DNA from: a virus | Strand: one strand, 5' to 3' | DNA length: 37,059 bases | Virus record (IMG/VR): IMGVR_UViG_3300040810_000553 | Location: 1 to 37,059 of that record | In this document: piece after piece, positions 21,354 to 31,195 of the stretch | How the letters are laid out: each line of letters starts with the position of its first letter | Numbering within the stretch: the stretch's first letter is position 1 | Program-made: the position numbers and the translations under genes | The notes under the pieces: model-generated | What the model was told of the DNA's origin: nothing | What the model saw: only the letters and a program-made list of their open reading frames with translations | Database searches by the model: none

Positions 21354-21598
21354 ATAGAGATAGATATAAAGATAGAGACGAAGTAAACAAGCGAGGCTTG
21401 TATGTCGAAGTAAGAAACAATGATGTAAGTCGTGCAATGCGCAAGCTCAAGAAGCTTTGCAACAACGAAGGCATAGCAAAAGACATGCGTAAAAAAGACT
21501 TTTATGAAAAGCCCAGTGCAGTAAAGAAACGTGCCAAAGCACAAGCACGTAAGCGTTGGTTAAAAGAACAAGAAAAAAATAAAGAAAAATGGCAATAA
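21350..21598 (+). CDS. rpsU: Ribosomal protein bS21
   Basis: An 82-residue S21-family protein with the core RGLYVEVRNNDVSRAMRKLK, the conserved Phe-Tyr in KDFYEKPSAVKKRAKAQARK and a basic C-terminal tail. bS21 sits near the anti-Shine-Dalgarno region of the 30S subunit and affects mRNA selection. Phage-encoded copies can replace the host protein. It is coupled to IF-3. Having both factors together argues for ribosome reprogramming. Confidence 0.93.
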   Translation: MNRDRYKDRDEVNKRGLYVEVRNNDVSRAMRKLKKLCNNEGIAKDMRKKDFYEKPSAVKKRAKAQARKRWLKEQEKNKEKWQ

Positions 21599-21602
21599 AA
21601 GG

Positions 21603-21631
21603 TTGACATTGCGGTTAACCTATACTATATT
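21603..21631 (+). promoter_or_regulatory. Strong sigma70 promoter for structured RNA
   Basis: TTGACA, 17-nt spacer, TATATT. The spacer contains the 8-bp palindrome GGTTAACC. The expected start is near 21638 (cataagttaggcg). The early transcribed motif ATAAGTTA also occurs in the P2 and P3 leaders. Confidence 0.85.
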
Positions 21632-21637
21632 AATTAC

Positions 21638-22120
21638 ATAAGTTAGGCGACGGTCTAAGTTAGATAGTGCAAGGAATGGCAATCCGTAGAGGTTGTAACT
21701 TGATTCATAGCTGTGGTGGCAATGCAAGAGCGTAGAGATACGAAGTTGTATTTTTAGACGTAACTGTTTAATATGAAGTTCCCGGATTTGAGCGTGGCTC
21801 TACAGAAGGGTTGTTGGTATTCACAGAGTCCAACCTATCATATTAACATAGTGTTTTGAAATACACACCAGAGTAGATGCACCTGCTTTCCTGTGCATAG
21901 GACAAGAGCTCGAAAGGCAACAAGTGAGTGTGTATTTCAAAGTAACTGTGTTGTTACTTTAATCCGAACTGTAACAAGAAAGGAAACCCATTAGACAAGA
22001 ACTATAGTGGGATAATTAGAAATACACAAACAGAGATGGGTTGCGCCGTAATACGCACGTTAGGGACTACGGTTAGTCCCTAGATAAATAAATGTGTAGA
22101 TGCCAATAGGGTCTACTAAA
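21638..22120 (+). ncRNA. Large structured non-coding RNA, unidentified
   Basis: About 480 nt with no credible ORF on either strand in a genome that otherwise leaves almost no gaps. It has its own consensus promoter. Helices seen by eye: TTTGAAATACACAC (21855-21868) with its exact complement (21928-21941), 14 bp; TTAATATGA (21768-21776) with TCATATTAA (21838-21846); AAAGTAAC/GTTACTTT (21939-21960); TAGGGACTA/TAGTCCCTA (22061-22082); AACCCAT/ATGGGTT (21986-22042); TAAGTTA/TAACTTG (21656-21702). Loops include GNRA types (CGTA-GAGA-TACG, and GAAA near 21912). It does not show RNase P, SRP, 6S or tmRNA signatures. Large ornate phage RNAs (GOLLD, ROOL) are possible relatives. Boundaries are approximate. 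Confidence 0.75.
22083..22090 (+). promoter_or_regulatory. Late-type box GATAAATA
   Basis: Seven of eight match the late consensus just after the last strong hairpin of the structured RNA. It could drive late expression of the 65-aa protein and Hsp20; AAAGGAG lies before the ATG. Confidence 0.4.
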
Positions 22121-22147
22121 TCAATCTTGCTTTAAAAGGAGATTACT

Positions 22148-22345
22148 ATGCAAGCAAATTATATTAATGGACTTGTGGACCAAATCCACACACAAACAAA
22201 AACTTTCCTAAACACAATTGATCCAAGCGAGCAGTACACAAAACCTGCACGAGCTATGGCTGATGCAAACACAGCGTTTGCTAAAACTTGGGCCGATGCA
22301 ACAGAAACAATGACCTCTGCTTACACAGCGGCATTGAAAGTATAA
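22148..22345 (+). CDS. Small helical protein (65 aa), phasin-like pattern
   Basis: A helical, Ala/Thr-rich protein (YINGLVDQIHTQTKTFLNTI; ANTAFAKTWADATETMTSAY) with a good Shine-Dalgarno sequence (AAAGGAG). The pattern of Ala- and aromatic-containing amphipathic helices recalls phasin-type proteins, but it is too short to assign. It is the first gene after the structured RNA and lies 11 nt before Hsp20, so it may be co-expressed with it. Confidence 0.65.
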   Translation: MQANYINGLVDQIHTQTKTFLNTIDPSEQYTKPARAMADANTAFAKTWADATETMTSAYTAALKV

Positions 22346-22356
22346 GGAGAGTGATG

Positions 22357-22788
22357 ATGAATAGATTGACAACTTTAGATATTAACAAACTCACTCCTTA
22401 TGCTGTAGGCTTTGACAGAGTATTTGACGACATGTTCAAGTATGTACAACACAATGCCAATAGCACAGGTTATCCACCTTACAACATTGTAAGAGACGGT
22501 GACAAGTTTCAAATTGAAATTGCACTAGCGGGTATTGCCAAAGAAGATTTGGAAATTACAGTAGCTGACAGTGTACTTACAATTGAACACAATCCAGAAG
22601 GCGAAGTAGAGCCAGAAGGTTGGCAATGGATTCACAAAGGAATCAGTCAGCGTAAGTTCAAGCGTAATTTTACACTGAGTGATGATATTGTAGTAAATGG
22701 ATCAAGAATGGAAAATGGTATGCTGTTCGTTGAACTAGAGCGTATTGTTCCTGAAGAAAAGAAACCACGTACAATTAAAATTAAGTAA
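22357..22788 (+). CDS. Small heat-shock protein, Hsp20/IbpA type
   Basis: A 143-residue alpha-crystallin-domain chaperone that holds unfolding proteins. Visible: TGYPPYNIVRDGDKFQIEIA, LAGIAKEDLEITVADSVLTI, the IbpA-like GISQRKFKRNFTLSDDIVV and RMENGMLFVELERIVPEEKK, and a C-terminal IKIK (IxI-type anchor). Of two adjacent ATGs the second was chosen because GGAG lies 7 nt upstream. Hsp20 is known from some marine phages, often linked to virion assembly. Here it neighbours ClpS and IF-3. Confidence 0.93.
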   Translation: MNRLTTLDINKLTPYAVGFDRVFDDMFKYVQHNANSTGYPPYNIVRDGDKFQIEIALAGIAKEDLEITVADSVLTIEHNPEGEVEPEGWQWIHKGISQRKFKRNFTLSDDIVVNGSRMENGMLFVELERIVPEEKKPRTIKIK

Positions 22789-30792: not shown

Positions 30793-30801
30793 ACTTTTTA
30801 C

Positions 30802-30832
30802 TTGACAACTTTATAGAAACCATGTATAAATA
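30802..30832 (+). promoter_or_regulatory. tmRNA promoter: sigma70 and late box combined
   Basis: TTGACA (30802-30807), 17-nt spacer, TATAAA, continuing as TATAAATA (30825-30832). The same site therefore fits both a sigma70-type promoter and a perfect T4 late box, which would give tmRNA synthesis both early and late. Confidence 0.8.
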
Positions 30833-30837
30833 TAGCT

Positions 30838-31195
30838 GTAAACGTTGAAGCAACGTGAACACATTCTGGACCTGGGGGCGGTACCCAGCAGCTCCACCAT
30901 AAACACACTGAGAACGTGAAAGCGTCAGTAAGTCTATAAAGGGTCGCAACCTTGAGTAACAGTGTGTTTTTGATGGGGCTGAAATAGGATCGACAGGTGT
31001 TGTAGTGAAGTGGAGTTTACCGGATGACTGCGTTATTGGTCAACATTCATAATTGCAAATGATAATTATGCGCCAGAAATGGCTTTAGCTGCCTGATTTA
31101 GGTAAGTGGGGGTTGGCAACGAACCTAGCAACAGAATCGTTGCATATTTACTACACCTGTATAAATTATGTCTTTAGGGACTTGATTTTTATCTA
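30838..31195 (+). ncRNA. ssrA: Circularly permuted two-piece tmRNA
   Basis: The acceptor piece comes first and ends CAGCTCCACCA at 30899, after a T-arm-like CTGGG/CCCAG stem. A 75-nt intervening segment follows, closed by AAACACACTG (30901-30910) with CAGTGTGTTT (30960-30969). The coding piece starts GGGGCTGAAATAGGATCGAC at 30975; its GGGGCTG pairs with CAGCTCC of the acceptor piece. The tag frame (31055-31096) reads ANDNYAPEMALAA then TGA. This order is that of alphaproteobacterial two-piece tmRNAs. It rescues stalled ribosomes and tags proteins for ClpXP/ClpAP. The T-loop position reads GGCGGTA, not TTCRA. End points of the pieces are approximate. Confidence 0.94.

Follow-up and report, generated by a model that had tools for sequence, protein, structure and literature searches.

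The stretch at positions 21638-22120 of the window (the whole 37,059-base virus record IMGVR_UViG_3300040810_000553) is probably a modular composite 5' leader of the Hsp20 operon of a marine T4-like phage, composed of a manA RNA, further hairpins, an embedded small RNA termed E here, a second promoter and a probable RNA thermometer. It lies between the gene for bS21 (PF01165), which ends at 21598, and a 65-aa ORF, which starts at 22148 and is followed in the operon by the genes for Hsp20 and ClpS. The 65-aa ORF appears phasin-like by eye, and in another locus (L178) a similar small ORF comes first. Elsewhere the window encodes IF3, an IMPDH-type enzyme, ribonucleotide reductase and a permuted tmRNA. 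The preliminary description had reported a sigma70 promoter followed by about 480 nt without a credible ORF in a genome with few other gaps, and this was confirmed: no ORF of at least 50 aa occurs between 21598 and 22148, and the single other gap of comparable size (about 30798-31187) is occupied by the tmRNA. The region folds better than 100 of 100 dinucleotide shuffles (z = -2.9). The features are collected in Table 1.

Table 1. Features of the Hsp20 leader and related elements in the window
Feature	Position	Strand	Details	Basis
Distal sigma70-type promoter	21603..21631	+	TTGACA 21603-21608, 17-nt spacer, TATATT 21626-21631	sequence
manA RNA (RF01745)	21643..21844	+	orphan riboswitch candidate	cmscan
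Domain B	21855..21941	+	optional; closed by 14-bp stem, inner hairpin ATGCAC/GTGCAT	covariation
Hairpin B2	21939..21960	+	AAAGTAAC-TGTGTT-GTTACTTT	covariation
Hairpin C	21987..22011	+	conserved GAYAAGAA loop	covariation
E element	22037..22082 (46 nt)	+	H-type pseudoknot E1 and hairpin E2 with CAYGGUUA loop	R1 covariance model
Putative T4-late-type proximal promoter	22083..22090	+	GATAAATA, directly after E	motif statistics
Putative thermometer hairpin I	22096..22116	+	GTAGATGCC-AATA-GGGTCTAC	covariation
Putative thermometer hairpin II	22123..22144	+	UUGCU anti-SD, bulged G22129, opposite SD AAGGAG 22136-22141	motif association
65-aa ORF	22148..22345	+	first gene past the leader	no Pfam or PHROG match
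Hsp20 small heat-shock protein	22357..22788	+		PF00011, E-value 4.1e-18
Permuted two-piece tmRNA	30798-31187		tag ANDNYAPEMALAA	ARAGORN

Based on this arrangement, we infer that both promoters are used. The distal sigma70 promoter, which is kept at the equivalent position in about 20 homologues, would give an RNA in which manA comes first and the hairpin domains B and C and then E follow, and the T4-late-type promoter just past E would give a second leader of roughly 55-60 nt with two hairpins only. In this short leader the U(U/C)GCU motif would pair with the Shine-Dalgarno (SD) sequence as in short ROSE-like thermometers and limit translation of the Hsp20 operon, until warming or another trigger opens the pairing. 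In addition, several homologues (L012 and L021) have an operator-like GTTGAC-N-GTCAAC inverted repeat overlapping the -35 box of the distal promoter, and the window has an imperfect copy of it at 21600-21619.

The first approximately 200 nt of the leader, as identified by Rfam search, are the known manA RNA (RF01745), a putative metabolite switch. The match in the window covers the full model (positions 1-192 of 192) with 42.9 bits and an E-value of 1.3e-9 in a cmscan run at a permissive threshold, which is below the gathering threshold of 55.2 bits. Among the syntenic copies between S21 and Hsp20, those of L021 (75.6 bits) and L035 (56.0 bits) pass this threshold and the others do not; the manA of cyanophage P-SSM4 reaches 184 bits. 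RNAalifold analysis of 21 homologues gave 38 consensus pairs, 22 of which show double changes, with the long-range closing stem included. The description of the whole stretch as unidentified therefore does not hold for 21643-21844, while it stands for E and the B/C hairpins, neither of which has a match in Rfam. Since Weinberg 2010 (PMC2864571) reported manA in marine metagenomes and T4-like cyanophages, with some copies preceding ibpA chaperone genes, the manA part and its association with Hsp20 were already known. Cyanophage S-CREM1 also has manA (PMC9964418).

At the other end of the leader, the two-hairpin module is a probable ROSE-like temperature sensor, as judged from its motifs and the gene that follows. 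Hairpin I shows 33 double-change cells versus 13.3 in shuffled alignments (44 sequences). The core hairpin plus AUCUUGCUU was found in 76 distinct instances, and wherever the length of the reading frame allowed a decision, the gene that follows is Hsp20 or a small ORF. Moreover, when hsp20 genes were located by their protein, independently of the hairpin pattern, U(U/C)GCU was found close before AGGAG in 35 of 35 distinct upstream regions, versus 2 of 37 for other genes. The motif is UCGCU in the cyanophages P-SSM4, Syn33, S-RIM4, S-B64 and S-CAM8 and UUGCU in HTVC008M and Melnitz, and the module is common to isolates of three host groups. Short ROSE-like elements span 61-62 nt and consist of two hairpins, with the motif U(U/C)GCU (PMC3669281), and a ROSE-type anatomy matching the module is also described in PMC4166951. 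Because the Rfam ROSE families gave no match up to an E-value of 10 in 21500-22300 and the folding of the window copy hardly depends on temperature, the module is classed as functioning in a ROSE-like way, not as a member of those families. With ViennaRNA at 5-42 °C, the SD is paired in P-SSM4 and Syn33, and the window copy is in an undecided state with no clear melting; its anti-SD is also able to pair with the start-codon region AUGCAAGCAAA. This small temperature response would agree with a plain translational repressor or start-codon hairpin that is not a thermometer, but the association of motif and gene is that of ROSE-type elements, and we regard the plain repressor as the somewhat unlikely alternative. 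No description of a phage Hsp20 thermometer was found in the open-access literature.

The proximal promoter is predicted from motif statistics upstream of the same core hairpin. NWTAAATA occurs in 28 of 95 distinct upstream sequences versus 6.1 in shuffled ones, and 27 of the 28 end 8-11 nt before TGCC. Many of the other upstream sequences have a sigma70 promoter at this position. The window copy has a mismatch to TATAAATA at the first base, and the T4-like late promoter of Melnitz is TATAAAT (PMC9004378).

The new part of the leader is E, an unnamed RNA by comparison with the Rfam families, which do not include the Ocean-VI motif, listed in Weinberg 2010 (PMC2864571) as marine-only and without an Rfam accession. 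Covariance-model searches of Rfam with the window, six further loci and Melnitz gave no match for E, and no description of it was found in a literature search limited to open-access papers. At least 120 IMG/VR stretches contain the E pattern, and 76 distinct copies were used to build the alignment A1 and the covariance model R1; the window copy, itself among these sequences, scores 63.7 bits against R1 (E-value 1.1e-19). E has 136 distinct cores, and its covariation is overwhelming. With the pseudoknot written out, 98.3% of the cells of A1 pair versus 72.3% in shuffled alignments, slid versions of the structure collapse, and 283 cells show double changes versus 80.6 in shuffled alignments. The pattern used for collecting copies fixed the columns TAATA, CG and GGTTA, and only copies with a complete E1 stem were retained, so that the 100% pairing of E1 and the invariance at the fixed columns result in part from the selection. 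No such constraint applied to the E2 stem or the pseudoknot pair: the first base can pair with the one preceding UAAUA in 129 of 136 cores, where 61.3 were expected, as AU (61), CG (33), GC (24) or UA (7). UAAU in E1 and GUUA in E2 could pair too, and neither varies. The given strand is probably the functional one because GU/UG wobble pairs (99) exceed AC/CA (20).

As for its distribution, R1 found a single copy of E in every one of 29 IMG/VR records (9 + 20) with lengths of 40-203 kb, which is a statement on copy number and not on prevalence, since these possibly incomplete records were selected as E carriers; among 18 other hsp20-bearing contigs, mostly small fragments, one had E. R1 also found one copy each in the window and in Melnitz-3, and none in HTVC008M or P-SSM4. 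The copy in Melnitz was found by the covariance model; blastn searches against isolate phages with the whole stretch, the consensus E or one IMG/VR copy gave only chance matches. The exact pattern occurs in one contig among 85,000 bacterial and archaeal genomes of GTDB. This contig (L303:4666-4701) belongs to a MAG of Candidatus Doudnabacteria and is possibly a phage contig, or the match is due to chance.

The neighbours of E include gp32-like, gp33-like, gp44-like, IscU-like, Hsp20 and porin-like genes and tRNAs, named from reading of the sequences except for gp33 in Melnitz. It is in sense with the preceding gene or tRNA in about 139 of 163 contexts, in which genes were called by a simple procedure; several of the exceptions are spurious ORFs. 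The median distance is 23 nt after the preceding gene and 28 nt before the next one, E stands right after a tRNA about 25 times, and the commonest genes downstream are Hsp20 or its preceding small ORF (33) and gp33 (16). A sigma70-like promoter lies within 63 nt in 10 contexts, and a U-run follows E2 in 36. In four loci (L154, L063, L081 and L119) E is just past the apparent end of gp32-like genes, several of them without a convincing same-strand downstream gene. Furthermore, E and tmRNA are within 10 kb of each other in 11 of the 16 records where both were placed, which is a lead only, since some records are related and two or three tmRNA matches are weak. Two further tmRNA-like matches (G028:C1:39507-39666 and G023:C1:8061-8533) lie about 500 nt from E and are weak, below the family cut-off. 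In Melnitz-3, a tmRNA, a glutamine riboswitch (52.8 bits) and E stand in a row upstream of gp33 (L294:1374-2008). E is not the riboswitch, which is at L294:1799-1847 with E apart at 1962-2008. Nor is E1 a copy of the phage's own tmRNA PK1: the tmRNA of the window has no GGGU...UAAUA, and the likeness is visible only in Melnitz. The action on ribosomes or Clp that had been proposed for the stretch found no evidence, though E is often near a phage tmRNA.

Because each genome has one E, almost always in sense and with unrelated neighbours in different phages, it is probably a separate small RNA, which in the window would be embedded by chance in the transcript of the Hsp20 operon. We read it as a stable RNA that probably acts in trans. 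We tentatively assume, as a quite possible reading, that E represents a new class of phage small RNA, a pseudoknot plus hairpin of about 50 nt that is present in one copy per genome across diverse marine phages, would be processed from tRNA, tmRNA or mRNA transcripts or sometimes made from its own promoter, and may act in trans on host or phage machinery. An unlikely alternative is that E regulates the downstream gene in cis, here Hsp20, as a riboswitch, protein-binding site or attenuator. The short median distance to the next gene and the frequency of Hsp20 and gp33 downstream are in its favour, but the single copy stands beside many unrelated genes or between tRNAs, some copies precede convergent genes and have no gene to control, and no part of E overlaps the start region. 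It is rather improbable that E is a self-cleaving ribozyme or a processing element separating RNAs in long phage transcripts: the core is a compact pseudoknot with many invariant bases and often comes straight after tRNAs or stop codons, as such an element might, but each genome has many gene and tRNA junctions and a single E, and in some cases (L098) E comes with a promoter and U-run of its own, where cleavage would be of little use. It is equally improbable that E serves the genome as a cis signal, for instance as a packaging site or as a replication origin that depends on a transcript; this would explain one copy per genome at variable places, but the strand asymmetry of the wobble pairs and the sense orientation indicate RNA. 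No GC-skew switch was seen at E in two genomes, which speaks against an origin, skew being weak evidence for T4-like replication.

Between manA and E are the optional hairpins, including the perfect 14-bp long-range pair (21855-21868 with 21928-21941) and the 8-bp hairpin with a 6-nt loop (B2) mentioned in the preliminary description, both of which were located. Domain B and B2 counted together have 98.6% paired cells and 9 double-change cells versus 2.7 in shuffled alignments (6 distinct sequences), with double changes in 3 of the 4 inner pairs of B2 counted, and hairpin C has 8 versus 1.7 (9 sequences). An alternative pairing of TGTGTATTTC (21929-21938) with GAAATACACA (22019-22028) was considered as a switch and rejected, as it is not retained in L007 or L015. 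The comparison with related phage contigs thus revealed compensatory changes in the helices, and the stretch is a structured conserved RNA, with covariation in manA, the B/C hairpins, E and hairpin I of the thermometer. Modules come and go independently, however: manA is missing from L017 and the 14-bp stem from L012, L014 and L018, and L029 has a promoter with only the last hairpins directly behind it. The downstream gene is constant, always Hsp20 or the small ORF preceding it. A single ornate RNA of about 480 nt is therefore not supported, and we consider a free-standing non-coding RNA of this kind very unlikely: all parts are structured within one transcription unit, and the second promoter past E means that the first 440 nt or so could be an RNA of their own, but each module can be gained or lost on its own, the window shows no U-run terminator past E, and manA is known as a motif of leaders. 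The structure seen in the preliminary description is real, but the description treated separate modules as a single RNA and overlooked manA.

If the composite leader is correct, a single chaperone operon of one phage carries several RNA elements one after another. The results suggest that cyanophages, pelagiphages and methylophages control Hsp20 via a ROSE-like leader of their own. The strongly conserved, single-copy E likely serves a need of these marine phage infections, and Melnitz is a cultured phage that carries it.

Compared with known systems, the stretch shares with GOLLD and ROOL a large structured RNA region in phage DNA; it differs in being a modular leader with a constant downstream gene, and neither family has an Rfam match in 21500-22300 at an E-value of up to 10. 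With other manA RNAs the leader shares the full-length match, the conserved structure and the location upstream of the Hsp20 (ibpA) gene of a marine phage, whereas the score of the window copy is under the threshold and further RNA modules lie between manA and the gene. The region of Melnitz with tmRNA and glutamine riboswitch (PMC9004378) likewise belongs to a marine phage and has these two RNAs and E within about 0.7 kb, but E is unannotated there and overlaps neither of them. Finally, the short ROSE-like thermometers of Pseudomonas ibpA (PMC3669281) have the same two hairpins in a short leader, which precedes a small heat-shock gene and sets U(U/C)GCU against its SD, while the module in the window is phage-borne, has the hairpin I consensus TGCC..GGG and falls outside the Rfam models.
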